Source: a virus
Direction: 5' to 3' (one strand)
Virus record (IMG/VR): IMGVR_UViG_3300032322_002510
Location: 1 to 34,785 of that record
Length of the DNA: 34,785 bases
Of this stretch, positions 14,248 through 34,785 are shown in pieces (position 1 is the first letter of the stretch; each line of letters starts with the position of its first letter). Made by a program: the position numbers and the translations under genes. The notes beneath the pieces are model-generated. The model searched no databases. It was not told the origin of the DNA and saw nothing but the letters and a program-made list of their open reading frames with translations.

Positions 14248-14619
14248 ATGAAAGACATAATCAGAATGCAACAATTGGCTGGTATTATTACTGAAAATAA
14301 AGCCAGAAAAATGATGAAAATTTTAAATGAAAATATGGGATCAACAGATTCTGTAAAACTTTTCGATTTCCCCCAAGACATTAATGATGTCGATTCTTAT
14401 GAAGAAATGGGATTTAAAGTTGAAATCGACGACGAAACTAATGAAACTTATTATGCCAGTTTGTCATTTAAAGGACACGATTGGATGGCTGTTCTTTCAA
14501 TATTAGATGATTGTGAAAACTATAATTTACGTCCTAATTTAGAATATGATGGAAAAGTTTATAATTTTGATGAAGCACATGAATTAGTAGATTCTAAAGC
14601 CGCTGGTGAAAATATTTAA
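14248..14619 (+). CDS. CTS-tagged small acidic protein
   Basis: A 123-residue protein that begins MKDIIRMQQLAGIITENKAR. The RMQxLAGxIxE(N) core is shared with the start of the gene at 16354 and with the C-terminus of the gene at 21813, and has a gp21-like site IITE-N at residues 13-17. A second similar site (ILNEN) follows at about residue 29. The remaining 90 residues are acidic and look like a small compact alpha/beta domain (DVDSYEEMGFKVEIDDETNE; HDWMAVLSILDDCENY). No known family. It is monocistronic: candidate promoter upstream, strong terminator (14623-14651) immediately downstream. Proposed head-packaged protein; the mature function is unknown. Confidence 0.55.
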   Translation: MKDIIRMQQLAGIITENKARKMMKILNENMGSTDSVKLFDFPQDINDVDSYEEMGFKVEIDDETNETYYASLSFKGHDWMAVLSILDDCENYNLRPNLEYDGKVYNFDEAHELVDSKAAGENI

Positions 14620-18127: not shown

Positions 18128-18889
18128 GTGATCAAACTGCTAACTCTCTTAAAAGAAGCTATAAATAAGCCTAAAGCTATATTTTTAGCAGGACCTGCTG
18201 GTTCTGGAAAGTCTACAATAGCAAAACAACTTTTGCCGTCTGATATCCCGGTTGTAAACATTGACGACACATACGAACAAATGTTAAAAGATGCAGGGAT
18301 AGGAATGGATGTGAAAAATTTTACCCCTGATCAACTTTCCCAAGCCGCCAAATTAATGGCGTCTGCAAGGAAAGTTACAGATGAAAAATACCAAGAACTA
18401 CTTAAAAATCTTAATAATATAATAATAGACGGGACAGCCGGGGCATCAAATCCAATCCGCAAAAAAAAAGAACAACTCGAAGCACTGGGGTACGATACAA
18501 TGATGTTAATGCTGTATGTTTCACCTATAACTTCTTTAGAACGCAACCAATCGCGAGAGCGCAGTTTACTTCCTAGTATTGTATTACGTACTTGGAGAGA
18601 TGTAAACTCAAATATAGACACATATAGAGATATGTTTGGAGAAGATAAATTTATTTTAATAAATAATGATCCTTCAGACGCCGAAACACAATTCGATCCT
18701 AAAGAGATAAAAAAACGATTTTTTGACACTTCAACCGCTAAAGGCAAACCTAAAACACCAGAAGAACAAGCCAAATCAAACGCTGAAGCGGCAAAATTAA
18801 ACCAAGATATACAACAAATGGTAGATACACTACCTCAGTTTGATGACTTATCAACAGCTAAAACTAAAATTAAACAATTTTTATCATGA
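18128..18889 (+). CDS. CTS-tagged P-loop kinase (zeta-toxin/AAA_33-like)
   Basis: A 253-residue protein with a GTG start chosen because MIKLLTLLKEA is the same tag as in the genes at 27494 and 27808. The site LKE-A (residues 8-11) fits a T4 gp21-type cleavage, leaving a mature enzyme that begins about 10 residues before the Walker A motif GPAGSGKS (22-29). NIDDTYEQ near residue 46 and NIIIDGTAG near 99 fit the acidic and Walker B positions of zeta-toxin/polynucleotide-kinase-like enzymes. RNQSRERSLLPSIVLRTW near 140-157 supplies Arg/lid residues. The last 50 residues are a helical Lys/Ala-rich extension. Substrate unknown (nucleotide sugar, nucleic acid end or small molecule). It overlaps the next tagged gene by ATGA. 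Confidence 0.7.
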   Translation: MIKLLTLLKEAINKPKAIFLAGPAGSGKSTIAKQLLPSDIPVVNIDDTYEQMLKDAGIGMDVKNFTPDQLSQAAKLMASARKVTDEKYQELLKNLNNIIIDGTAGASNPIRKKKEQLEALGYDTMMLMLYVSPITSLERNQSRERSLLPSIVLRTWRDVNSNIDTYRDMFGEDKFILINNDPSDAETQFDPKEIKKRFFDTSTAKGKPKTPEEQAKSNAEAAKLNQDIQQMVDTLPQFDDLSTAKTKIKQFLS

Positions 18890-19245
18890 AACTAAGCCAA
18901 TTACGCCAACTAATTAAAGAAGAATTAGAAGCAGCAATACAAGAAGAGTCATACACCCCTGTAGATGAAGTGGGTAAATTCTTTGTAGTTAAAAAACCTA
19001 AAGGGAAAATGACCAAAGAAGATATGGTATATGAAGCTACAGTATTTGATGAAATTAAAATGGATGAAACCAAAGGGGTTTATACAAATAAATCTGAGGC
19101 TAATCGTCACGCTACTGAAGCTTTAAAAGAATACGAAATGCAGCTTAAAGAAATGGAAGATGCTATGTCTGAGTTTAGGGAAGCTAAAAAAGGCATTGAC
19201 GAAAAGAAAAAAGCCGCTAGAGAAAAAATCGAAAAACTTAAATAA
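18886..19245 (+). CDS. CTS-tagged coiled-coil protein
   Basis: A 119-residue protein starting MKLSQLRQLIKEELEAAIQE. This is the same tag (MKxSQLRQLI[KR]EE) as the genes at 33099 and 33405, but with different codons, so it is an old rather than a recent copy. IQE-E at residues 18-21 is the likely cleavage point. A small beta-rich stretch follows (KFFVVKKPKGKMTKED), then a C-terminal coiled coil from about residue 75 (EYEMQLKEMEDAMSEFREAK). It is translationally coupled to the kinase gene and abuts the next start with no gap. Role unknown; a packaged DNA-associated or partner protein is possible. Confidence 0.5.
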   Translation: MKLSQLRQLIKEELEAAIQEESYTPVDEVGKFFVVKKPKGKMTKEDMVYEATVFDEIKMDETKGVYTNKSEANRHATEALKEYEMQLKEMEDAMSEFREAKKGIDEKKKAAREKIEKLK

Positions 19246-20814
19246 ATGAATCAACTTACTAAACTTTTAGTAGGGGAACTTCTTGAAAATAAACAAGTAA
19301 TAGGCTTGTATGGGGGTGGTTTTAAACCACCCACTAAAGGACACTTTGAAGTTGTAGAACAAGCCCTAAAAGAATATCCTGAATTAGATAAACTTATAAT
19401 CTATGTTGGTGGTGGTGTTAGAGATGGGATTACCCAAGAACAATCGTTAGCGGTTTGGGATATTTATAAAGATCTTTTAGGCGATAAAGTTGAAATTCAA
19501 CCATCCCCTTCTCCTATTGGCGATATTATACGCTACGGCAGAGACAATGCAGATAAAATTGTGTATTTCTTCTTAGGAGAAAGAGAAGGTAAAGAAAGCG
19601 ATGCAGCAGATACAGCACAACGCACTAAAAATGTTGAAACAAAATACCCCAATACACAAATAAAAATTATTAAATCCCCTGATACTGGAATTAGCGGGAC
19701 TGCAGCTCGTAAAATATTACTCAACCCAGATAAAACATTTGAGGATTTTAAACAATTCCTTCCTGATGGATTAGCAGATGGAGAAAAGCAACAAATATAT
19801 GATTTATTAAAAAAAGGAGCAGTAAAAGAAAATGTAGCCCCAAACCACACAGGCAAATCATCACCTTATGGTTCAGGTTACAAACCACTTGTTCTTGAAA
19901 TATCAAAATATATGATAGAACAAGGTATGGAAATACAGCCATTACCTAAAGTTCAATTCATAGACAACGACGAAGGTAATGCCCAAAATATTTTAGGAAA
20001 TACAGCCTATTATAATCCACAATCTAAAGCTATAGTATTATATACTTTAAATCGTCACCCTAAAGATATTTTACGTTCGTTTTGCCACGAAATGGTTCAT
20101 CACGAACAAAATATGAAAGGAACATTAGGTAATATTAGAACCCAAAATACAACAGAAGACTCCCATTTAGACAGAATTGAAAGAGAGGCGTATGAAAAAG
20201 GGAACATAATATTTAGAAATTGGGAAGATAATTACAAAAAAACTTGGCAATCTGAAAACCCATCGGTACCTTCGAACCCGGGGGTTAACGAGATAGAGAG
20301 AGGAGGAGAGAATAAGGGGGGTGAAGGGAACCCGGGGGGTGATAAATACACCATATATTGTGATATGGATGGGGTATTGTGTGATTTTGATAAACGTTTT
20401 ATGGAATTTTCAAACGGAATCCCCCCATCCCAATACGAAAACGAATTTGGGAAGAAAGCATTTTGGGAATTAATTAGTAAAAAAGGAGTAGGATTTTGGG
20501 TTGGTATTCCCTGGATGCCTGATGGTAAACAGCTTTGGAATTATATTAAACCCCATAATCCATCTTTATTATCAGCCCCATCTCGTGAAGAATCATCTCG
20601 TTTAGGTAAACGCTTGTGGGTTAGAAATAATATCCCCGGAACCAAACTTATCCTACGCCAGGCCGAACAAAAACAAGAATTTGCTAACCCTAACGCTATC
20701 TTAATAGACGATAGAACTTCAAATATCCAGCAATGGAGAGATAAAGGGGGGATTGGTATAATGCATACCTCGGCTAATGAAACAATTAAACAACTTAAAG
20801 AACTCGGACTATGA
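19246..20814 (+). CDS. CTS-tagged triple fusion: nucleotidyltransferase - HExxH zincin - HAD phosphatase
   Basis: A 522-residue protein. Residues 1-15 (MNQLTKLLVGELLEN) are tag-like with LLE-N. Residues 18-190 form a cytidylyltransferase-like domain with GGGFKPPTKGH at 23-33 (the T-x-G-H nucleotide-binding motif) and GISGTAARKI near 148-157 (ISxT-type motif). Residues about 215-330 hold a metallopeptidase-like region with CHEMVHHEQ at 280-288 (HExxH) and a candidate third ligand in REAYEKGN near 313. A Gly-rich linker (residues 343-366) is encoded by unusually G-rich DNA. Residues 367-522 are HAD-like with YCDMDGVLCDFD, motif I of 5'-nucleotidase-type phosphatases, and LIDDRTSN late. Each domain has its catalytic signature; substrates are unknown. 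Confidence 0.75.
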   Translation: MNQLTKLLVGELLENKQVIGLYGGGFKPPTKGHFEVVEQALKEYPELDKLIIYVGGGVRDGITQEQSLAVWDIYKDLLGDKVEIQPSPSPIGDIIRYGRDNADKIVYFFLGEREGKESDAADTAQRTKNVETKYPNTQIKIIKSPDTGISGTAARKILLNPDKTFEDFKQFLPDGLADGEKQQIYDLLKKGAVKENVAPNHTGKSSPYGSGYKPLVLEISKYMIEQGMEIQPLPKVQFIDNDEGNAQNILGNTAYYNPQSKAIVLYTLNRHPKDILRSFCHEMVHHEQNMKGTLGNIRTQNTTEDSHLDRIEREAYEKGNIIFRNWEDNYKKTWQSENPSVPSNPGVNEIERGGENKGGEGNPGGDKYTIYCDMDGVLCDFDKRFMEFSNGIPPSQYENEFGKKAFWELISKKGVGFWVGIPWMPDGKQLWNYIKPHNPSLLSAPSREESSRLGKRLWVRNNIPGTKLILRQAEQKQEFANPNAILIDDRTSNIQQWRDKGGIGIMHTSANETIKQLKELGL

Positions 20815-26669: not shown

Positions 26670-27497
26670 ATGAAACTTACCGACATACTCAAGCAAATAA
26701 TCCAAGAAAAAAAAGCCAAACGCGACAGGTGCTTGCGTATTGCAGACCGCAAATTTAACAAGCCATCAGCATATAAATCAGGTGCTGTAGTTAGATGCCG
26801 CCAAGGTAAAATATGGAAAGGATTAAAAGAAGAAAATTTAAACGAATCCAAACAAGTAGGCCCGTTATATCATTTTACAGATTTTTTTTCTCTCAAAAAG
26901 ATTTTAACTAGTAATACTATGATTGGATCCTATGGCAATCAAGATATAAAAGGTCGATATATATCGACAACACGTGATAAAAATTTTTATAAATCTGATC
27001 CTAACCTTGGCGTTGAGAATCTGCAAGCCGCTTTAATATTTGATGGAAATAAATTAAGTAATAAATATAAAATTAAACCATATGCTTATGAACCATATAG
27101 AGACCTTGATCGAAGTGGTGCCGAAGCAGAAGAACTAATCATACTTCCAGGCAGAGATTTACCTAATATTAAATCATACTTATCAGGTGTAATATTATTA
27201 AAGCCTAATAAAGCAATAGAATCTTTCCTAAAAAAAGAAAATATACCTTATAATGTAGATTTAAGCGAAGCTAAAAAAGAAACACTCCGCACTTGGTTCA
27301 AACGCAAAGGAGCACCAGGTAAAACAGGCGGGTGGGTTGACTGTAATTCACCTATCCGCAAAGACGGAAAAATAACAGGATACAAACCTTGTGGAAGACA
27401 AAAAGGCGAAGAACGAGCTAAATATCCTTCGTGTCGCCCAACCGCAGCAAGGTGTAAGGATAAAGGTAAAGGAACTAAATGGGGTAAAACAAAATGA
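26670..27497 (+). CDS. CTS-tagged ADP-ribosyltransferase-like protein with flanking Cys-rich modules
   Basis: A 275-residue protein. The tag MKLTDILKQIIQE (IIQE-K) is followed by a basic Cys module (RDRCLRIADRKFNKPSAYKS, then GAVVRCRQGKIWKGLKEE). Residues about 65-185 look ART-like: LYHFTDFFSLKKILTSN (the H strand), RYISTTRDKNFY (S-T-T) and GAEAEELIIL (E-x-E), in the right order. The last 70 residues (KRKGAPGKTGGWVDCNSPIR, then CGRQKGEERAKYPSCRPTAA) are a second Cys/basic module of DUF5872 type. T4 Alt is also a head-packaged ADP-ribosyltransferase, so the analogy is direct. The ART call is inference from three motifs. Coupled by ATGA to the next gene. Confidence 0.5.
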   Translation: MKLTDILKQIIQEKKAKRDRCLRIADRKFNKPSAYKSGAVVRCRQGKIWKGLKEENLNESKQVGPLYHFTDFFSLKKILTSNTMIGSYGNQDIKGRYISTTRDKNFYKSDPNLGVENLQAALIFDGNKLSNKYKIKPYAYEPYRDLDRSGAEAEELIILPGRDLPNIKSYLSGVILLKPNKAIESFLKKENIPYNVDLSEAKKETLRTWFKRKGAPGKTGGWVDCNSPIRKDGKITGYKPCGRQKGEERAKYPSCRPTAARCKDKGKGTKWGKTK

Positions 27498-27811
27498 TCA
27501 AACTACTCAATCTACTAACCGAAGCTAAAGAAAGCTTTGAAACATTTGCTAAAAACCGTTTAGCAGGTGCCGAAAAAATTATAGCCAACGCTAAGAAAAA
27601 AGGTGGAGATGCATTACTAACATACACTCACTTTAATGTAAAGCCATCTTATTACAAAAAAGCCATAAACGGCAAATTTGACAAAGAAGCCGCTAAAAAA
27701 GAATTTGAAGAAACATATAAAAAAATCTCATTAAACATGACCCAAACCGAATTTCAACGTGAAGTTGGACGTTTAGAGGTATTAGGCGAACTATTAATAA
27801 GAGAAAAATGA
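27494..27811 (+). CDS. CTS-tagged small helical protein
   Basis: A 105-residue protein starting MIKLLNLLTEAKES, almost the same tag as the kinase at 18128 (MIKLLTLLKEA), with LTE-A as predicted cleavage site (residues 8-11). The mature part would be about 95 residues, very Lys/Ala/Glu-rich and helical (FAKNRLAGAEKIIANAKKKG; DKEAAKKEFEETYKKISLNM), the composition expected of a small basic internal head protein. No known family. It overlaps both neighbours by ATGA and so is produced with the ART-like and the Cys-rich proteins. Confidence 0.55.
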   Translation: MIKLLNLLTEAKESFETFAKNRLAGAEKIIANAKKKGGDALLTYTHFNVKPSYYKKAINGKFDKEAAKKEFEETYKKISLNMTQTEFQREVGRLEVLGELLIREK

Positions 27812-28233
27812 TAAAACTAATCAACATACTAAATGAAGCTGAACTAAACCAATGCCCAGCTCCAACCCAAAACATTGAACTCAACCTTCAAAATAGGCAA
27901 AAGGCTATCAACGAATACGGCTATGGCCCGTTGAACCCAAACCAACCCAACGAAAAATTTTGGCAAGCCAAAGCAGATATGTGGAAGCTTGATTCTATAG
28001 AAGAAGCTAAATCATCTCGTTGTGGTAATTGTGCTGCTTTTGACATTACATCTAAAACATTAGATTGTATTGCTAAAGGGATAGGCGACGATGAAGGCAC
28101 AGAAGATCCGTTTGATGTTATTAAAGCTGGAAAACTTGGGTATTGTAGATTTTTAAAATTTAAATGTGCCGCAGCTAGAACCTGCGACGCTTGGGTTGTA
28201 GGAGGTCCTATTACAGATGATAAAGCCGTATAA
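27808..28233 (+). CDS. CTS-tagged Cys-rich protein, possible metal or Fe-S binder
   Basis: A 141-residue protein. The tag MIKLINILNEAELNQ has LNE-A (residues 8-11). The mature part contains NQCPAP, then from about residue 70 RCGNCAAFD, LDCIAKGIG, GYCRFLKFKC and RTCDAWVVGGP, eight Cys in all. The spacing CxxC..C..C..C..C with an adjacent GYC and CDAW recalls high-potential iron-sulphur or other metal-binding folds. From memory, near relatives with NLxNRQxAIxxYGYGPxNP occur in marine phages. The 3' end overlaps by 17 bases the relic of the cupin-like gene that begins at 28217. Function unknown. Confidence 0.6.
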   Translation: MIKLINILNEAELNQCPAPTQNIELNLQNRQKAINEYGYGPLNPNQPNEKFWQAKADMWKLDSIEEAKSSRCGNCAAFDITSKTLDCIAKGIGDDEGTEDPFDVIKAGKLGYCRFLKFKCAAARTCDAWVVGGPITDDKAV

Positions 28234-28300: not shown

Positions 28301-29239
28301 ATGGATAAAATTTTTTATACTTATATCCACATTCGCCCGGACATTAATGAGCCCTTTTATGTAGGTAAAGGTAAAGGAAAACGCTATAAAACTAAAACAG
28401 GTAGAAACCAATATTGGCATAATGTTGTAAATAAAAATAATGGTGTTTTTGAATCTAAAATATTATTTGAAGGATTAACTGAAAAAGAAGCCTTATTAAA
28501 AGAACAAGAAATAGAAAAAGAATTTAAAAAAAAAGGATATGGTTTGGTTAATTTAGCTGAAACCGGAAATTCTGGTCCTGTAGGGGTTTCTAGAACAGAA
28601 GAACACAAACAATCCTTAAGTAAAGCTACTAAAGGTAGAATAAGTCCTAATAAAGGAAAAAAACATGATCCCTTTCCTGAGGAATCAAAATATTGGAAAG
28701 GAAAAAATAGGCCTAAAGATACTAAAATGAAACAATCATATTCACAATCTAAACGATGGGAGGAAAAAGGCAATGAATTAAAGCAAAATTTTAGAAACAA
28801 AATAGGCAAAAAAATACTTCAAATAGAAGCAAAAACCCTAACCCCCCTAGAAATTTTCCCATCCCTAATAGAGGCTAAAGAAAAAACCCAAATTAATGTA
28901 ATTATAAATTGTGCTGCAGGTTTACAAAAAACAGCGGGGGGGTATATTTGGGTATATAAACACCCTAAGAACCCATATTTTGAATATATTATTAATGAAA
29001 ATGAAGTAATACGTGTATTTGAAAATAAAGATTTAGGAACTGAGGAACTTTGGCATCGGGATTTGGAGGATCGATTAATAGAATCTATTGGAAACACAGA
29101 TTGGCAAATACAACTTGATAATCAATTGCCATCTTCCCTAAATGGTCGTATATTTATACCCAGACACGAATTTCACCGTGTTATAAAAGGAACAGGAACA
29201 CTCAAATTAAAGATATATAAAATACAGGCCGATTCATAG
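28301..29239 (+). CDS. GIY-YIG homing endonuclease fused to a cupin-like domain
   Basis: A 312-residue protein. Residues 1-85 are a GIY-YIG nuclease (FYTYIHIRPDINEPFYVGKG with the Y..YVGKG core, GRNQYWHNVV, Glu in EKEALLKEQEIE). Residues about 95-145 are NUMOD3-type minor-groove modules (RTEEHKQSLSKATKGR). Residues 170-220 are a NUMOD1/IENR1 helix-turn-helix ending GGYIWVYK. The usual end of such enzymes is there, yet the frame continues for 90 residues with VIRVFENKDLGTEELWHRDL, EDRLIESIGNTDWQIQLDNQ and FIPRHEFHRVIKGTG. This is a cupin-like metal-binding domain (WHRD, HRV). It is a chimera created by homing into a cupin-like gene. The first 80 residues are closely paralogous to the gene at 30298. 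Confidence 0.8.
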   Translation: MDKIFYTYIHIRPDINEPFYVGKGKGKRYKTKTGRNQYWHNVVNKNNGVFESKILFEGLTEKEALLKEQEIEKEFKKKGYGLVNLAETGNSGPVGVSRTEEHKQSLSKATKGRISPNKGKKHDPFPEESKYWKGKNRPKDTKMKQSYSQSKRWEEKGNELKQNFRNKIGKKILQIEAKTLTPLEIFPSLIEAKEKTQINVIINCAAGLQKTAGGYIWVYKHPKNPYFEYIINENEVIRVFENKDLGTEELWHRDLEDRLIESIGNTDWQIQLDNQLPSSLNGRIFIPRHEFHRVIKGTGTLKLKIYKIQADS

Positions 29240-29251
29240 CCGGCCGTTTTT
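29227..29251 (+). terminator. Probable terminator overlapping the stop codon
   Basis: Stem GGCCG / CGGCC with a 9-base loop, followed by GTTTTT. The stop TAG of the endonuclease-cupin gene is in the loop. The stem is short but GC-pure. Confidence 0.5.
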
Positions 29252-29270
29252 AACAAAAATTTTTTTAGAG

Positions 29271-29306
29271 AGCTGTGGCCTCAATTTTGAGACCACAGCT
29301 TTTTTT
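29271..29306 (+). terminator. Rho-independent terminator with double stem
   Basis: Outer stem AGCTGTGG / CCACAGCT, one mismatch, inner stem CTCA / TGAG, loop ATTT, then a run of eight T ending at 29306. It insulates the endonuclease-cupin gene from the oxidoreductase. Confidence 0.85.
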
Positions 29307-29335
29307 CGTATATTAACATGTTAAAAATTTCAAAT

Positions 29336-29851
29336 ATGAATAAAAAAATTGTAATAGTAGGAGCAGGAGTAGCAGGCATAAACGCTGCTACCAAACTCGT
29401 TGATAATGGTTACCCGGGTGAATTGATTACAATTATTGATATGGGTAAAGACCCGTATCAACGCAAGCCTGAAGAGGTAATGACAGGTATGCTAGGTGCT
29501 GGAGGGTGGAGTGATGGCAAATTAACATACCACACAGCAATTGGAGGTCAATTGTCTAAATATTGCGGTGAAGACAAAGCAATGGAATTGATGGATCAAG
29601 TAATTACCAATTTCAAACGTTTCCACCCAAAACCAGAAGAAGTACAATGTTCAAATCCTGTTGAGGAACCTGAATTTATTAAACCATACTTTGGTTTACG
29701 TTTATTCCCAGTATGGCACGTAGGTACAGATTATTTATCTGAAATTGCTAAAAATTGGTATGATTATTTAGTAGAGAAAGGTGTTAATTTCGAATGGGAA
29801 ACTAAAGTAACAGATATTGATTTTGAAACAGGAGAAGTAATAATAGAATAA
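29336..29851 (+). CDS. FAD-dependent oxidoreductase, N-terminal half of a split gene
   Basis: 171 residues from ATG 29336 (MNKKIVIVGAGVAGINAATK); an upstream ATG at 29318 is possible but adds only MLKISN. The start is a classic dinucleotide-binding Rossmann motif GAGVAG (residues 9-14). It is followed by ITIIDMGKDPYQRKP and TGMLGAGGWSDGKLT as in COG2509-type FAD-dependent dehydrogenases. The protein stops at DIDFETGEVIIE, just where such enzymes continue with a second strand and the conserved GTGKAG loop. That continuation is found at 30990, beyond two inserted genes. The two halves together (171 + 261 residues) equal one normal-sized enzyme. Whether they assemble is unknown. Confidence 0.8.
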   Translation: MNKKIVIVGAGVAGINAATKLVDNGYPGELITIIDMGKDPYQRKPEEVMTGMLGAGGWSDGKLTYHTAIGGQLSKYCGEDKAMELMDQVITNFKRFHPKPEEVQCSNPVEEPEFIKPYFGLRLFPVWHVGTDYLSEIAKNWYDYLVEKGVNFEWETKVTDIDFETGEVIIE

Positions 29852-29861
29852 AACACATAAC

Positions 29862-30305
29862 ATGACAACAAAATATTTTTTTGATTTTAATAATTTAAAA
29901 ATTTTAGGAGGTTTTAAAAACAGAGTTCATTTACTAGGTATAAAAGAGACATATGATGAAACACTAATGCCTGAATTAAAAGTAGGAGTATCATATAATA
30001 TGGGCGATTTTCCTGAAAGCGAAATGGAGGAGTGTATTTTATCAATAGATAGAAAACTTTTTCATAAAATGTTAAATAAATGGTTAGATGAAAAATTAGA
30101 TTATTGTAACCGCTGGAACCATTATTGTGGTGTAGGTGGATTTATTTATGGTAAAAATGTAAAAAAAGAATATGATACTTACATTTATGAATATATTGGT
30201 GTTGAAGATAATGAAACAAACGATGGCTTAGAAGAAGTTAAAAAAGATATGGTTGTTTACACTGTAGATTCTTTTGATGAATTAATTGATATGGAACATG
30301 GATAA
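29862..30305 (+). CDS. Hypothetical protein inside the split oxidoreductase
   Basis: A 147-residue protein of unknown family (MTTKYFFDFNNLKILGGFKN). It has several aromatic residues and three Cys (EECILS, DYCNRW, HYCGVGG), with an acidic C-terminus (DNETNDGLEEVKKDMVVYTV). It lies between the N-terminal half of the oxidoreductase and the second GIY-YIG gene, whose ATG it overlaps by eight bases. It is probably carried by the homing element as a passenger, or is a pre-existing neighbour. No nuclease motif is visible. Confidence 0.45.
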   Translation: MTTKYFFDFNNLKILGGFKNRVHLLGIKETYDETLMPELKVGVSYNMGDFPESEMEECILSIDRKLFHKMLNKWLDEKLDYCNRWNHYCGVGGFIYGKNVKKEYDTYIYEYIGVEDNETNDGLEEVKKDMVVYTVDSFDELIDMEHG

Positions 30306-30993
30306 TAAATTCATAGTATACACTCATATTCGCCCTGATACAAATGAACCATTTTATGTTGGGAAAGGAGTACCTGGAAGAGAAATTAGAACATGCGGTA
30401 GAAATCAATATTGGCATAACATTGTAAATAAAAATAATGGCATATTTGAATCTAAAATATTATTTGAAGGATTAAATGAGGGTGAAGCACTACTAAAAGA
30501 ACGAGAAATAGAATTGGATTTAAAAAATAAAGGTTATATATTAACTAATATAATAGAATGTGGTGTTAAAGCTGGTACTACCGGAATGAAACACTCTGAA
30601 GAATCCAAACAAAAGATGAGTAACGGTTTAAAACAATATTACAATGAAAATCCTAACCCTAAAAAAGGTATTAAGATGAGTAAGGAAAGTTGTGAAAAAA
30701 AGAGTAAATCTATGTTAGGTAAAAAAGTTAAATTAGGTATAAAAGAATCTGATGAAACTAGAAAAAAGAAAAGTGATGCTTTTAAAGGAAGAATATATAG
30801 TGAAGAAAGTAAACAAAAGAAAAATGAAAAATTAAAAGATAAAAACATTTATGTCTTTTATAATTTATTAAATGATGAAAAGTTTAAAGGAACTAGGAGA
30901 GAATTTCAAGATAAATTTGATTTAAACAGTGGAAGGTTAAGCCATTTAATAAATAATAAAATTTCTAAATATAAAAATTGGATAAAAATATGA
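30298..30993 (+). CDS. GIY-YIG homing endonuclease splitting the oxidoreductase
   Basis: A 231-residue protein from ATG 30298 (MDNKFIVYTHIRPDTNEPFY); an in-frame TTG at 30286 is less likely. Residues 1-85 form the GIY-YIG domain (VYTHIRPDTNEPFYVGKG, GRNQYWHNIVNKNNG, GEALLKEREIE). Several NUMOD3-type repeats follow (KHSEESKQKMSNGLKQYY; SDETRKKKSDAFKGRIYSEE). The C-terminus (IYVFYNLLNDEKFKGTRREF .. GRLSHLINNKISKYKNWI) is a NUMOD1-like helix-turn-helix. The N-terminal domain is nearly the same as in the gene at 28301, with very different tails. The stop overlaps the ATG of the C-terminal oxidoreductase half (ATGA), so translation of that half may be coupled to the endonuclease. Confidence 0.82.
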   Translation: MDNKFIVYTHIRPDTNEPFYVGKGVPGREIRTCGRNQYWHNIVNKNNGIFESKILFEGLNEGEALLKEREIELDLKNKGYILTNIIECGVKAGTTGMKHSEESKQKMSNGLKQYYNENPNPKKGIKMSKESCEKKSKSMLGKKVKLGIKESDETRKKKSDAFKGRIYSEESKQKKNEKLKDKNIYVFYNLLNDEKFKGTRREFQDKFDLNSGRLSHLINNKISKYKNWIKI

Positions 30994-31775
30994 AAAAAAT
31001 TAAATTTGATACATGCATAGTAGGCACAGGTAAAGCAGGAATAGACTTCTCAGCTAAATTAGCTCAAAAGTACAATTTACCTACCGAAGTCAAGTCAACC
31101 CAGATTGGAGTGAGATTTGAAAGCCCACAACACCATTTCCAAAAACTAATCGATATTTCATATGATTTCAAACTTTATAGAAAATTTGAAGATAAAGGCG
31201 TTTCGCTTCGCTCTTTTTGTACAAACAATAATGCGGCATATGTTGCCGTAGAAGAAACATACGGCGACCACAGCTACAACGGCCACGCTAAAAAAGATGA
31301 AGCATATAGAAACAATATGACTAATTTTGGCATATTAATGGAAATTAATGGTATTAAAGATCCGTTTGAATGGTCACGTAAATTAGTTTCCAAAGTACAA
31401 TCTCATGGTACTGGTTTATATTATAGCCCATCTCGTAAACCATCAATTACTTCAGAAGGAAATGAAGTCTCGGCTCACCAAATCGATTGGATGGGATTAC
31501 AATTAGTATTAGAATATTTTCAAGGATACTTTAGATATATTACAGATTTCATTGAAGACATGAAAAAAGTATTTCCAACATTAGGAGATGATTGGGGAAT
31601 ATACATTCCCGAGGTAAAATATTTAAGCCCAGAGCCTCTTGTAAACTACAACGATTTATCCTTAACAAAATATCCGAATGTACACTTTGTTGGCGACGCT
31701 CTTTCAGCAAGGGGTATAACTGTTAGTGGAGCTCACGGTATTTATGTGGCTTCTTCGATTTTACAAAGTTCTTAA
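30990..31775 (+). CDS. FAD-dependent oxidoreductase, C-terminal half of a split gene
   Basis: 261 residues from ATG 30990 (MKKIKFDTCIVGTGKAGIDF); the longer TTG start at 30978 is unlikely. It begins with the strand and GTGKAG loop that follows the N-terminal half in intact relatives. It continues with QIGVRFESPQHHFQKLIDIS and a Cys-containing FCTNNNAAYVAVEE. It ends with NVHFVGDALSARGITVSGAH, then GIYVASSI, the FAD-contacting GD motif of the fold. It lacks its own nucleotide-binding N-terminus, so it must pair with the product of 29336 to be active. It is followed by a promoter motif and the HNH gene. Confidence 0.8.
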   Translation: MKKIKFDTCIVGTGKAGIDFSAKLAQKYNLPTEVKSTQIGVRFESPQHHFQKLIDISYDFKLYRKFEDKGVSLRSFCTNNNAAYVAVEETYGDHSYNGHAKKDEAYRNNMTNFGILMEINGIKDPFEWSRKLVSKVQSHGTGLYYSPSRKPSITSEGNEVSAHQIDWMGLQLVLEYFQGYFRYITDFIEDMKKVFPTLGDDWGIYIPEVKYLSPEPLVNYNDLSLTKYPNVHFVGDALSARGITVSGAHGIYVASSILQSS

Positions 31776-31785
31776 ATATTTATAA
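31776..31785 (+). promoter_or_regulatory. Candidate promoter motif ATATTTATAA inside a start-codon hairpin
   Basis: Exact motif copy immediately after the oxidoreductase stop. Its 3' part forms the 5' arm of the hairpin 31778-31809. Initiation about seven bases downstream would yield a transcript lacking that arm. Confidence 0.55.
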
Positions 31786-31809
31786 TCGAACAAAAACTCG
31801 ATTATGAAT
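31778..31809 (+). promoter_or_regulatory. Hairpin covering the start codon of the HNH endonuclease
   Basis: The core is an 8-bp perfect stem ATAATCGA / TCGATTAT with loop ACAAAAAC. It extends to 12 pairs (one G-U) through the whole ATG at 31804-31806. Read-through RNA from the oxidoreductase would fold and hide the start codon. This matches the logic known for T4 homing endonuclease genes. Confidence 0.6.
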
Positions 31810-32751
31810 TACCAAAGAATATACAACCAAATAGTTGAACGTGCCCAGAATAGAACTTTAGATGGTTATAAAGAAAAACACCATATAATCCCAAAATGTA
31901 TTGGTGGGAATAATGATAAAGAAAATATAGTAAAATTAACAGCAAAGGAACATTTTTTATGTCATATATTACTTTGTGAAATTTATCCTAAAAATATAAA
32001 ATTATATCAAGCTTTATGGTTAATGTCTACTAACAAAAATAAAAAAAAAGGGAAAAGATATAAAGTATCATCTAGAGTTTATGAAAGAATTAAAATAGAA
32101 GCTTCTAAAATATACAAAAATCGAACACAAACTAAAGAAGAAAAACAAAAAAGAGTTAATTCTCAAATTTTAACTTGGGATAAAAAACGCAAAGAACAAG
32201 GTTTAATAATTAATAAAAATTATATTTTTGATTTTATAAAATCATACCCCAATATTAAATTGACTGAAAATAATAAACATTGTATAAACTATTGTTATAA
32301 TGATAATATTAATATTAAAAACATTATTTGTTTGTGTGGTAATGGAATAAAAAGGTTTCAAAACTATACTCAAGGTTATAAACAATATTGTAGTCAAAGA
32401 TGTGCTAATTTATATAATAAAGAAAAATCTTTGCAAACTAAAGAAAATAATGGTTTATGGGATAATTCTAAAGAAAGATTACGTAAAAAAGAAATAGAAA
32501 ATTTATCTAAAATAGAAATTGAACAACTTAGAAGAAAACGAATTAGTGATAAACAAAAAGGCAAAACTAAATTAGGAAACAGTCATAGTAAACCCATTAT
32601 ACAATTCGATACCCAAGAAAATCTTATCCAAGAGTGGCCAAGCATTAGGCAAGCTGGTTTCAGTTTAGTAGGGAATCAAGGTGAACCTATTAGAAAATGT
32701 CTTAAAGGTTTACAAAAAACAGCTTATGGGTACAAATGGAAATATAAATAA
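31804..32751 (+). CDS. HNH homing endonuclease
   Basis: A 315-residue protein. The HNH nuclease core is at residues 24-58 (KEKHHIIPKCIGGNNDKENI, then VKLTAKEHFLCHILL: the HH, N and H positions). A Cys4-type zinc element lies near residues 175-205 (IICLCGNGIK .. YKQYCSQRCANLYN). The C-terminal about 55 residues (PIIQFDTQENLIQEWPSIRQ .. LKGLQKTAYGYKWKYK) are a NUMOD1/IENR1 DNA-binding module like that of the gene at 28301. It is free-standing, between the end of the oxidoreductase and a small hypothetical gene. Expression is probably limited to transcripts from its own promoter because of the hairpin over its ATG. Confidence 0.85.
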   Translation: MNYQRIYNQIVERAQNRTLDGYKEKHHIIPKCIGGNNDKENIVKLTAKEHFLCHILLCEIYPKNIKLYQALWLMSTNKNKKKGKRYKVSSRVYERIKIEASKIYKNRTQTKEEKQKRVNSQILTWDKKRKEQGLIINKNYIFDFIKSYPNIKLTENNKHCINYCYNDNINIKNIICLCGNGIKRFQNYTQGYKQYCSQRCANLYNKEKSLQTKENNGLWDNSKERLRKKEIENLSKIEIEQLRRKRISDKQKGKTKLGNSHSKPIIQFDTQENLIQEWPSIRQAGFSLVGNQGEPIRKCLKGLQKTAYGYKWKYK

Positions 32752-32800
32752 AACTTGGTTTTTTAAACTTTCTTTTTTACATTTATATTAAAATAATAAT

Positions 32801-33043
32801 ATGGAAAAATGGGAACCAACTAAAAAACTCACTAAAACAGACGGAACAATAATGTACGTATGGGACAGTAAATTACACAACTGGGAAGGGCCAGCACTAA
32901 TACCCGAAGGTAATATGCGAAAAAGAGAATATTATCTTTATGGAAATAAAAAAACAGAAGAACAATGGAAAGAAGCTCGTAAAGATAGGGAAGGTCTTCC
33001 TTGGTATAAAAAAACCTCAATTACAGGAACCAGTAGATATTAG
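32801..33043 (+). CDS. Small conserved phage protein
   Basis: An 80-residue protein (MEKWEPTKKLTKTDGTIMYV; LHNWEGPALIPEGNMRKREY, then YLYGNKKTEEQWKEARKDRE). The pattern W-x-GPA-x-IPxGNxxxxEYYxxGxxxxxEEW is one I remember from short phage hypotheticals; it resembles a MORN-like strand pair. No catalytic motif. It stands alone between the HNH gene and the tag-cassette genes, with a weak promoter-like ACATTTATAT at 32779. It may be a regulatory or host-interaction protein; function unknown. Confidence 0.5.
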   Translation: MEKWEPTKKLTKTDGTIMYVWDSKLHNWEGPALIPEGNMRKREYYLYGNKKTEEQWKEARKDREGLPWYKKTSITGTSRY

Positions 33044-33060
33044 TTTTTATTTTTTTTTGT

Positions 33061-33070
33061 ATATGTATAA
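33061..33070 (+). promoter_or_regulatory. Candidate promoter motif (ATATGTATAA variant)
   Basis: Nine of ten match to ATATTTATAA, preceded by a T-rich run and followed by the A-rich leader of the gene at 33099. The leader CAAACAAAAA-type sequence is repeated before the gene at 33405 and again at 33903. Confidence 0.45.
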
Positions 33071-33098
33071 CAAACAAAAACATTCAAATTTTAAAAAT

Positions 33099-33338
33099 AT
33101 GAAAGTATCACAATTAAGACAACTAATTAGAGAAGAAATTAGAGGAGTATTGAATGAAAAAATTATTAATGATAATCATTTCTTAAATGAAATGGTAATT
33201 AACGATTTTATGTCATATAAGGATTTTGCCCTCTCCGTAGCTAAATATTTGATGAAAAACTATGAACGCAGTGATTATGATAGTTTTATGAGGGTTTTAA
33301 GCTTAAAACTTAAAGGTTATAAAGACGATTATATTTAA
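33099..33338 (+). CDS. CTS-tagged small protein (copy 1 of duplicated tag)
   Basis: 79 residues from ATG 33099, chosen because MKVSQLRQLIREEIRGVLNE is the tag shared with the next gene. A longer in-frame start at 32940 would overlap the previous gene without any sign of use. LNE-K at residues 18-21 is the predicted processing site, leaving about 59 residues. The mature part is helical and polar with a hydrophobic centre (INDFMSYKDFALSVAKYLMK; YDSFMRVLSLKLKGYKDDYI). No family recognised. It is followed by a hairpin without T-run (33348-33372) and the second tagged gene. Confidence 0.6.
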   Translation: MKVSQLRQLIREEIRGVLNEKIINDNHFLNEMVINDFMSYKDFALSVAKYLMKNYERSDYDSFMRVLSLKLKGYKDDYI

Positions 33339-33347
33339 AGACACTTA

Positions 33348-33372
33348 GGTTTTAAGATCTCATTTTAGAACC
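33348..33372 (+). other. Intergenic stem-loop without T-run
   Basis: A 10-bp stem (GGTTTTAAGA / TTTTAGAACC, two G-U pairs) with loop TCTCA, between the two tag-cassette genes and directly before the repeated leader. No poly-T follows, so it may be an attenuator, an mRNA stabiliser or a processing site. Confidence 0.4.
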
Positions 33373-33404
33373 ATAAACAAACAAAAATATTTAAATTTTA
33401 AAAC

Positions 33405-33902
33405 ATGAAAGCATCACAATTAAGACAACTAATTAGAGAAGAGATTAGAGGAGTATTGAATGAAAACCTAACTAATGAAGATGCTACTCTTATTAAAAAG
33501 AATTCTCCATTCGGAAATGAAAAACCTTTACAAGTGGGTGATTTAATTATGTGGGATGAAATAGGTCGTGGGGGGATGGGCCGGACATTAATAGGGAGAA
33601 AAATAGGTAAAGTAGTAAAAATATTAGGATCAGCTAATTTACAAGCTGAAGAAATCAAAACCGGAGATTTACATACAGTTTCTCGTAGAGAATTAACTAA
33701 GGTTCCTGGTGTAGGGGATAAAATAGAAGCAACTTTAGATTATAATTACGGGGCAGGAAGCGGCTCTCAAGGATCTAGTAGAATTTCAGGTACAGTTAAA
33801 AAAATAAATTTAGAAGGTATGACCCTAATGCTCCAACCAGAAAATTCAGACAAAACTTTCAAAGTAAGCATGACTGATTTACAAAATTTAAAAATTTATT
33901 AA
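33405..33902 (+). CDS. CTS-tagged protein with SH3-like beta-barrel (copy 2 of duplicated tag)
   Basis: 165 residues. The tag MKASQLRQLIREEIRGVLNE is followed by N, giving LNE-N. The mature part begins with polar residues and then GDLIMWDEIGRGGMGRTLIG .. KIGKVVKILG. Later come VGDKIEATLDYNYGAG and ISGTVKKINLEGMTLMLQPE. These are short strands with Gly turns as in tandem SH3-like or KOW-like barrels. No catalytic motif. Its tag DNA is nearly the same as that of the gene at 33099 while the rest is unrelated. A truncated third leader copy and a terminator follow. Confidence 0.6.
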   Translation: MKASQLRQLIREEIRGVLNENLTNEDATLIKKNSPFGNEKPLQVGDLIMWDEIGRGGMGRTLIGRKIGKVVKILGSANLQAEEIKTGDLHTVSRRELTKVPGVGDKIEATLDYNYGAGSGSQGSSRISGTVKKINLEGMTLMLQPENSDKTFKVSMTDLQNLKIY

Positions 33903-33922
33903 ATAAACAAACAAAAATATTT
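33903..33922 (+). repeat. Orphan third copy of the tag-gene leader
   Basis: Twenty bases (ATAAACAAACAAAAATATTT) identical to 33373-33392, the leader of the gene at 33405. Here it is followed directly by terminator 33930-33957 and not by a gene. This looks like the scar of a lost cassette or one recombination endpoint. Confidence 0.7.
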
Positions 33923-33929
33923 TAAAGTT

Positions 33930-33957
33930 AAGCTTGGGAAACCAAGCTTTCTTTTTT
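33930..33957 (+). terminator. Rho-independent terminator, repeat of the one at 14623
   Basis: Stem AAGCTTGG / CCAAGCTT, GAAA loop, T-rich tail. A 29-base core is the same as that of the terminator after the gene at 14248, about 19 kb away. Confidence 0.85.
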
Positions 33958-33999
33958 ACATTCACGCAAATAAAACAATATAGTTATGAAAATAGGCTT

Positions 34000-34048
34000 A
34001 TGTTGTTTTTCCTATTTTTTATAATATTTATGATAGATAAAACAACAT
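34000..34048 (+). promoter_or_regulatory. Inverted repeat over the start codon with a promoter motif in the loop
   Basis: ATGTTGTTTT at 34000-34009 is perfectly complementary to AAAACAACAT at 34039-34048, which includes the first two bases of the ATG at 34047. The 29-base loop holds ATATTTATGA (34024-34033), a nine of ten match to the candidate promoter. RNA started in the loop would lack the 5' arm. Confidence 0.55.
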
Positions 34049-34785
34049 GCCTGCTAAATTAACTCAACAAGATTTTATAAATAAAGCTAATAAAAAACAT
34101 AATAACTTTTATGATTATTCATTAGTTAATTATGTAAATGCTGTTACTAAAGTAACAATTATATGCTCTAAACATGGGGGGTTTGAACAACAACCTAATA
34201 ATCATTTATATGGTCAACGTTGTATTAAATGTATGGGAGATAATGTTAGAAAAGCAAGAATATCTAATACTAACGATTTTATTAAAAAATCAAAAGAAAT
34301 CCATGGGGAAAAATATGATTACTCTTTGGTAAATTATAAAACAGGAAAAGATAAAGTAATAATTATATGTTCTACTCATGGTGAGTTCTTACAAACACCC
34401 TTTGCTCATTCAAGCCCCTCAATGAAACAAGGGTGTCCTTTTTGTAAAATATCAAAAGGAGAAGATGAAATTGAAAGGTTTTTAATAAAAAATAATATAG
34501 AATATATTAGAGAATATAAGTTTAAAGATTGTATAAACCCCAAAACAAATAAAAAACTCCCTTTTGACTTTTACCTCCCTCAGATAAATACTATAATAGA
34601 ATACCAAGGAGAACAACATTATAAAAAAACGGGATATTTTGAAAGTAGAGGAGGAGGGTTAAAAGATTTACAATACAGAGATAAAATTAAAAAAGAATTT
34701 GGGATTTTAAATAATTTTAATTATATTGAAATATCATATAAGCAATTTGAACAAATAAAAACAATTTTAAAAAATAAAATATGCG
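34047..34785 (+). CDS. Vsr/DUF723-type endonuclease, partial at right edge
   Basis: 246 codons from ATG 34047 (MPAKLTQQDFINKANKKHNN), open at the window end. Two treble-clef-like DUF723 repeats are visible: YDYSLVNYVNAVTKVTIICS..HGGFEQQPNNH..CIKC and YDYSLVNYKTGKDKVIIICS..HGEFLQTP..GCPFC. A nuclease domain follows (GEDEIERFLIKNNIEYIREY, then LPFDFYLPQINTIIEYQGEQ, HYKK). It has the E..D-x-Y/F-L..E-Y-x-GxQHY pattern of Vsr-like/EDxHD homing enzymes of the restriction-endonuclease fold. It is probably another free-standing homing endonuclease. Its start codon lies in a hairpin arm. Confidence 0.75.
   Translation, partial: MPAKLTQQDFINKANKKHNNFYDYSLVNYVNAVTKVTIICSKHGGFEQQPNNHLYGQRCIKCMGDNVRKARISNTNDFIKKSKEIHGEKYDYSLVNYKTGKDKVIIICSTHGEFLQTPFAHSSPSMKQGCPFCKISKGEDEIERFLIKNNIEYIREYKFKDCINPKTNKKLPFDFYLPQINTIIEYQGEQHYKKTGYFESRGGGLKDLQYRDKIKKEFGILNNFNYIEISYKQFEQIKTILKNKIC

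Follow-up and report, generated by a model that had tools for sequence, protein, structure and literature searches.

A tagged nucleotidyltransferase, zincin and HAD phosphatase protein of a T4-like phage and its possible processing as a head-packaged polyprotein

In phage T4, capsid targeting of the internal protein IPIII depends on its residues 4 and 7 and its processing on residues 8 and 10; the prohead protease gp21 cleaves after L/I-x-E (PMC9026906). The N-termini of T4 IPII and IPIII read MKTYQEFIAE/A (a slash marks the position of a cut, known or putative, here and below), and that of Alt reads MELITELFDE. In cyanophages, a protein annotated as NMNAT in S-SCSM1 was detected by mass spectrometry in virions of that phage and of S-CREM2 (ORF154, 3 peptides), with S-CBWM1 and S-SZBM1 also cited, carry-over into such virion proteomes being possible according to their authors (PMC10665884, PMC9602691). 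In Flavobacterium phage immuto (NC_055915), the adjacent products gp088 and gp087 carry no annotation beyond NMN adenylyltransferase and 5' nucleotidase, respectively. A further class is formed by the polyvalent proteins, for which zincin-like metallopeptidases (MPTases) are presented as the hub domain and are proposed to process the proteins (PMC5512222).

The gene considered here encodes a 522-residue protein and touches or overlaps its neighbours in a tightly packed, one-strand operon of a fragment of 34,785 bases (the window). The source phage is a T4-like virus of Bacteroidota-type bacteria. The product bears an N-terminal tag, followed by predicted nucleotidyltransferase (NT), zincin and HAD phosphatase domains (Table 1).

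The locus shares several features with T4 IPI-III and Alt, namely a tag with hydrophobic residues at positions 4 and 7 followed by [LI]xE/, a group of varied tagged genes lying together, a gp21-type protease (encoded by relatives) and, in the case of Alt, enzymatic cargo. Unlike the T4 cargo, which consists of single products, several enzymes here follow one tag, with predicted inner cuts, and no homology of the three domains to T4 internal proteins was seen. The cyanophage virion protein (PHROG 395/3041; S-CREM2 gp154, S-SCSM1 gp281) has a homologous and likewise tagged NT domain, but is without a fused zincin or HAD domain. The immuto pair has the same domains and the same synteny (primase, exonuclease, then the gene); it differs in that gp088 is extended by a pol-beta-type domain at the N-terminus and contains one more HExxH domain, and the HAD domain forms a separate tagged gene (gp087). 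The likeness to the polyvalent proteins is that a single phage protein, encoded near late genes, joins disparate catalytic domains and a zincin, whereas a term search of that paper found no T4-type tags, no prohead-protease sites between domains and not this particular domain trio (PMC5512222). By analogy, the 522-residue protein would thus combine a working like that of T4 internal proteins with the domain logic of polyvalent proteins, the protease being seen in relatives only.

We propose that the gene probably encodes a head-packaged polyprotein, which is split by the prohead protease into injected enzymes. The proposal draws on features read from the sequence (the tag, the sites, the module boundaries and intact catalytic residues) and on protease and capsid genes in relatives, from which we infer packaging, cleavage and function.

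Table 1. Positions of the features of the tagged gene and its surroundings (window coordinates; a slash marks a putative cut)
Feature	Residues	Position	Strand	Remarks
Gene of the 522-residue protein		19246..20814	+	ATG start
Capsid-targeting-like tag MNQLTKLLVGELLE	1-14	19246..19287	+	candidate cuts after VGE11 and LLE14
NMNAT/CTP-transferase-like (HIGH) nucleotidyltransferase domain	15-195	19288..19830	+	predicted
NT motif GGFKPPTKGH	24-33	19315-19344	+	
NT motif ISGTAAR		19690-19710	+	
Inner junction site 1, AVKE/N	192-195	19819..19830	+	
Gluzincin metallopeptidase domain	205-336	19858..20253	+	predicted
HEMVH		20086-20100	+	HEMVHHEQ at residues 281-288
Third ligand E314	314	20185-20187	+	putative
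Inner junction site 2, GVNE/I	346-349	20281..20292	+	low-complexity linker
HAD phosphatase domain, 5'-3' deoxyribonucleotidase (NT5C)-like	364-522	20335..20811	+	predicted
HAD motif DMDGV	373-377	20362-20376	+	
HAD motif ILIDDR		20698-20715	+	
P-loop kinase with tag VIKLLTLLKE/A		18128..18889	+	neighbour; GTG start
Small protein with tag MKLSQLRQLIKE/ELEAAIQE/E		18886..19245	+	neighbour
Three consecutive tagged genes, MKLTDILKQIIQE/K (26670), MIKLLNLLTE/A (27494), MIKLINILNE/A (27808)		26670..28233	+	
Protein with tag MKASQLRQLIREEIRGVLNE/N		33405..33902	+	neighbour
ATATTTATAA copies in gaps		1588, 11018, 14221, 18107, 21782, 28289, 31777		

The tag and the three domains

The start of the protein, MNQLTKLLVGELLE/N, fits the T4 capsid-targeting (CTS) rule, with hydrophobic residues at positions 4 and 7 and an [LI]xE motif. 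The preliminary description had pointed out a tag-like start (LLE-N), and this proved to be a real tag, ending in VGELLE/N (residues 9-15), with the cut at 11 or 14 instead of 10. Many other genes downstream of position 14248 have tag-like starts, including MIKLLTLLKE/A, MIKLLNLLTE/A, MIKLINILNE/A and MKLSQLRQLIKE. An [LIVM]xE motif was present at residues 6-24 in 17 of the 27 genes downstream of 14248 (one of these, at 33100, having been read out of frame) versus 3 of 12 in the tail block, against a background among interior 19-mers of ∼28% and ∼21%, respectively. In immuto, tag-like starts were found in 21 of 180 ORFs, compared with 3.5% of interior positions; they cluster at 104-119 kb (7 of 13 ORFs). 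The prohead protease has one as well, as does the ORF preceding the capsid gene, and none was seen in the 20 tail-region ORFs. In S-CREM2 (p = 0.04, small numbers) and S-SCSM1, proteins of the virion could not be told reliably from others by a generic tag regex; in both phages many virion proteins are without a tag and a few non-virion proteins match it. The tag alone therefore does not prove packaging.

The cyanophage “cytidyltransferase” is homologous to the NT domain (hhalign E 8e-11) and collinear with it through the C-terminal helices. Nearly all of its 48 distinct N-termini begin with MKxFxQFLxE/A, which is the T4 IPIII pattern, and M1, F4, F7, E10 and A11 are invariant in homologues that are 45-85% identical. 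The two homologues detected in virions both carry the tag (MKNFSSFLTE/A in S-CREM2 and MKSFLQFLKE/A in S-SCSM1). In S-SRM01 a stand-alone zincin gene directly precedes the tagged NT gene; the zincin of B23 begins with MNYKQFLRE/S. A literature search found no virion mass spectrometry for the window phage or immuto. These data bear on the possibility that the protein is an unpackaged, intracellular enzyme of late infection, active in nucleotide or NAD metabolism, whose amphipathic N-terminus serves complex formation. NT5C-like nucleotidases do occur in many phages outside such a context, but the tag with its cleavage motif and the detection of the cyanophage NT homologue in virions make this reading very improbable.

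Within the NT domain, G24, F26, P28, P29 and H33 are invariant in an alignment of 19 relatives, and S150, T152 and R155 are nearly so. The (T/H)xGH and SxTxxR motifs both occur, in the correct order, and the catalytic site is complete, since the second motif (SGTxxR) is also there. In a profile search against the PDB, the best solved relatives were protein MJ0541 of M. jannaschii (1f9a; E 1e-7), which we take to be an NMN adenylyltransferase, and phosphopantetheine adenylyltransferases. The alignment with MJ0541 spans GRFQPFHKGH, with a second, weak stretch at SGTEIRR. The Pfam family PF01467 (CTP_transf_like) scored 17.4 bits, below its gathering score of 21; the assignment thus rests on the motifs and the PDB profile search, and the domain is labelled NMNAT-like and not NMNAT. 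For the reaction itself, NMN adenylyltransferase is the leading guess, offered tentatively and at somewhat less than even chance, because SGTxxR resembles the MJ0541 branch and the cyanophage workers gave the same name.

In the zincin domain, all 19 aligned sequences share H281, E282, H285, E312 and E314. The HExxH motif together with a downstream invariant Glu is the gluzincin pattern, and a zincin fold is predicted. Weak zincin-type Pfam matches were obtained (M91/DUF6782), PF18818 (MPTase-PolyVal zincin) matched 2 of the 19 members with a best E of 0.0056, and the zincin profile gave no match to PDB sequences. A strong profile match connects the domain with a stand-alone cyanophage protein, which itself matches the phrog_87 metallo-protease (E 5e-5).

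The HAD domain was aligned with those of 21 relatives, among which D373, D375, D488 and D489 (D10, D12, D125 and D126 of the alignment) are invariant or nearly so. The features of the NT5C type were found, i.e., the DxDG nucleophile motif, Ser/Lys and the IDD acidic motif. The profile matched phrog_2643 (E 1e-24), and the Pfam NT5C score was 17.4, below the cut-off of 24.8. The substrates may be dNMPs.

The three catalytic signatures that had been placed in one 522-residue frame thus hold up and are not due to chance, their catalytic letters being (nearly) invariant across 19-21 relatives. The nucleotide- or NAD-type chemistry suggested for them is plausible, as the NT profile matches both NMN and phosphopantetheine adenylyltransferases and the phosphatase is NT5C-like. 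PADLOC gave no match for the 522-residue protein.

Order and linkage of the domains in relatives

Scans of IMG/VR yielded 24 relatives with the protein and then at least 500 with a profile, 80 of which were kept. The order NT, zincin, HAD was observed in at least about 100 loci, including nearly all of those with enough sequence, with the HAD domain either fused or encoded by the following gene. The earlier statement that no described protein has this order did not survive, given these loci and immuto, which has the order likewise with HAD as the next gene; a unique architecture is ruled out by the same recurrence.

Among the matches listed, the fused form was represented by 19 non-identical sequences from independent metagenomes with different linkers, and HAD was a separate gene in 53 of 72 distinct sequences; where split, the HAD gene often overlaps the preceding gene by a few bases. 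In a tree of the 72 HAD domains, the state changes between fused and split at least about 6 times, 3 of the changes being forced by well supported branches. The preliminary description had named separate genes and an artefactual fusion as a finding that would speak against it. The HAD domain is indeed mostly separate; fusion, however, is genuine, and the two states have been switched repeatedly. An assembly artefact is ruled out by the fused relatives in independent samples, whose linkers differ. Across these sequences, domain order is conserved and covalent linkage is not.

Optional modules occur before and between the domains, up to a total of six modules. Among them are a pol-beta-type domain at the N-terminus, a second HE[IL]EH domain and a zinc ribbon, and most members have one or two HExxH domains. 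In database annotation, no gene has more than one of its domains named. The N-terminal domain, nucleotidyltransferase-like of the pol-beta type by eye (MSG[AV]AGG[SN]RI...GD[IL]DI[IV]), was noted in loci L006, L018, L023, L061, L067, L074 and L097 and in immuto gp088. In relatives of this type the chain begins with MSGAAGG and the tag-like helix is internal, e.g., VLELIRPFLLE/D. The second predicted metallopeptidase domain, RHE[IL]EHL...KE[IV]DAxLQGxY, was seen in L010, L011, L013, L002 and ∼35 further loci, and starts nearly always straight after NE/GRYD or similar; that of immuto gp088 gave no Pfam match.

Sites between the domains and proposed processing of the chain

Head genes, including a gp21-type prohead protease, were not found in the 34.8-kb window. 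Homologues of both the prohead protease and the capsid protein of immuto are encoded on the contigs of 8 of 10 relatives, one of them L004, whose protein is ∼82% identical to the window protein. The capsid proteins of the relatives carry QLV[VTI]E/ and that of immuto QIVSE/, shortly ahead of the conserved domain and in the region of the T4 gp23 cut. By homology, [LIV]xE is therefore the expected specificity of a gp21-type protease in this phage lineage.

Motifs of the form [LIVM]xE recur between the domains. At site 2, which sits 17-19 residues upstream of the HAD domain of the window protein, this protein and the 4 relatives closest to it all have [VL]xE (GVNE; GVKE, GVQE, GVKE, GLDE). Within 14 residues before a domain start, [LIVM]xE was found in 41 of 59 junction clusters for the zincin (15.9 in shuffles), in 21 of 23 for the second zincin (7.7 in shuffles) and in 10 of 14 for HAD (4.7 in shuffles); the shuffles were composition-matched, windows inside domains carry the motif at 13%, and the motif is short and was picked after the tags and the capsid site had been seen. 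When all linker sequence is pooled, the motif is in modest excess (298 versus 260 ± 13.5), and this excess is strong only beside domain starts. L or I predominates at P3, N or K at P2, and G, N or M at P1'.

A stand-alone zincin gene reads KLSSLLSE/IYAEPS where fused zincins have PLNE/MYAEPS. At site 1, L003, L004 and L008 have a module of ∼127 residues that the window protein does not have; its ends read KGVVKE/ and RTQKE/NVAP in L003. The module would thus have been gained or lost exactly between two [LIVM]xE-type sites, as its ends are VVKE/ and TQKE/. What appears to be new here is the recurrence of [LIVM]xE just before inner domains, together with a module difference bounded by such sites.

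According to the proposed mechanism, the amphipathic N-terminal tag, like the T4 capsid-targeting sequence, would carry the new chain into the prohead core, where a gp21-type prohead protease would remove it after [LIV]xE. The same protease would cut the [LIVM]xE sites between the domains, after E195 and E349, such that one tag would bring in three enzymes, to be freed later. The NMNAT-like adenylyltransferase, the zinc metallopeptidase and the NT5C-like nucleotidase would then be ejected with the DNA. Like T4 Alt and the internal proteins, they would exert their effects, here on NAD or other nucleotide pools and on a protein substrate, during the first minutes after infection. An injected NMNAT could sustain NAD for injected ADP-ribosyltransferases or against NAD-depleting defence.

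The protein might also be packaged, lose its tag and be injected whole, in which case the inner [LIVM]xE motifs would be relics of fused tagged genes. Separate tagged genes do exist for HAD and, rarely, for the zincin, fusion and fission recur, and relatives with an extra N-terminal domain retain the whole tag-like helix internally. Relics should decay, yet P3 and P1 persist amid variable P2 and flanking residues, both before MYAEPS (PLDE, PIEE, PLNE, GIKE, ALEE) and at site 2 (GVNE, GVKE, GVQE, GLDE), and we regard injection of the intact chain as unlikely.

Still less probable is that the zincin itself frees the domains, either within the head or once inside the host cell, as in a polyvalent protein (Iyer et al. 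2017). The hub role assigned to MPTases in that work (PMC5512222) and the presence of one or two HExxH domains in most members agree with such self-processing. The inner sites, however, resemble the capsid-protein and tag sites expected for a gp21-type protease, and in many loci HAD is encoded separately next to the same zincin, leaving the latter with little to release. The zincin is more likely to be cargo than the processing enzyme, because the sites between the domains match the phage head protease and not any known zincin specificity.

Processing of a packaged chain by the prohead protease remains the preferred reading, and it predicts the exact N-termini of the cleaved products. Points that speak against it are the shortness and after-the-fact choice of the motif, its modest pooled excess, the distance of site 2 from the HAD domain, the internal tag of pol-beta-type relatives and the imperfect agreement of tag and virion presence in S-CREM2 and S-SCSM1. 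In its general form, i.e., that the prohead protease of T4-like phages serves as a polyprotein processor, with one tag, interchangeable modules that are gained and lost at the sites, [LIVM]xE cuts in the head and several injected effectors per chain, the odds are in our view evenly balanced. If true, a widespread and poorly annotated phage family would become a list of predicted injected enzymes, and the repeated appearance of NMNAT-like enzymes in cyanophage virions would be accounted for. It would also suggest a natural design in which several enzymes are delivered by one packaging tag, with effects on NAD and nucleotide pools in the first minutes.

Neighbouring genes and intergenic motifs

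In the 5' to 3' direction, the window contains baseplate/tail-type genes, a primase-like gene, an exonuclease-like gene and small tagged genes, followed by the gene of the 522-residue protein. The order in immuto is the same, with the tail spike followed by primase gp091, exonuclease gp090, gp089, gp088 and gp087. The tagged P-loop kinase has PHROG matches of the polynucleotide kinase/thymidylate kinase type and is another candidate injected enzyme. The tagged protein encoded at 26670-27497 contains LYHFTDFFSLKKIL... and is ADP-ribosyltransferase-like by eye; the library search lent this no support, giving just a near-cut-off match to DUF5872 at its start.

Of the 13 intergenic gaps longer than 15 nt, 7 contain the motif ATATTTATAA (TATTTATA on the + strand), which lies 11-33 nt ahead of the gene start; that strand has only 11 copies across the 34.8 kb. 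It is a candidate phage promoter. The T4 late-promoter motif TATAAATA was not enriched in the window.

A dehydrogenase-like gene (29318-31775) is probably interrupted by a homing element. Its first part (29318-29851) corresponds to positions 2-158 of phrog_12409 and its second (30978-31775) continues from position 185, and between them lie a small ORF (29862) and an ORF that looks like a homing endonuclease (30286, GIY-YIG type by eye). Several homing-endonuclease-like ORFs were recognized by eye at the 3' end of the fragment (28301-34784), beginning at 28301, 30286, 31804 and 34047.
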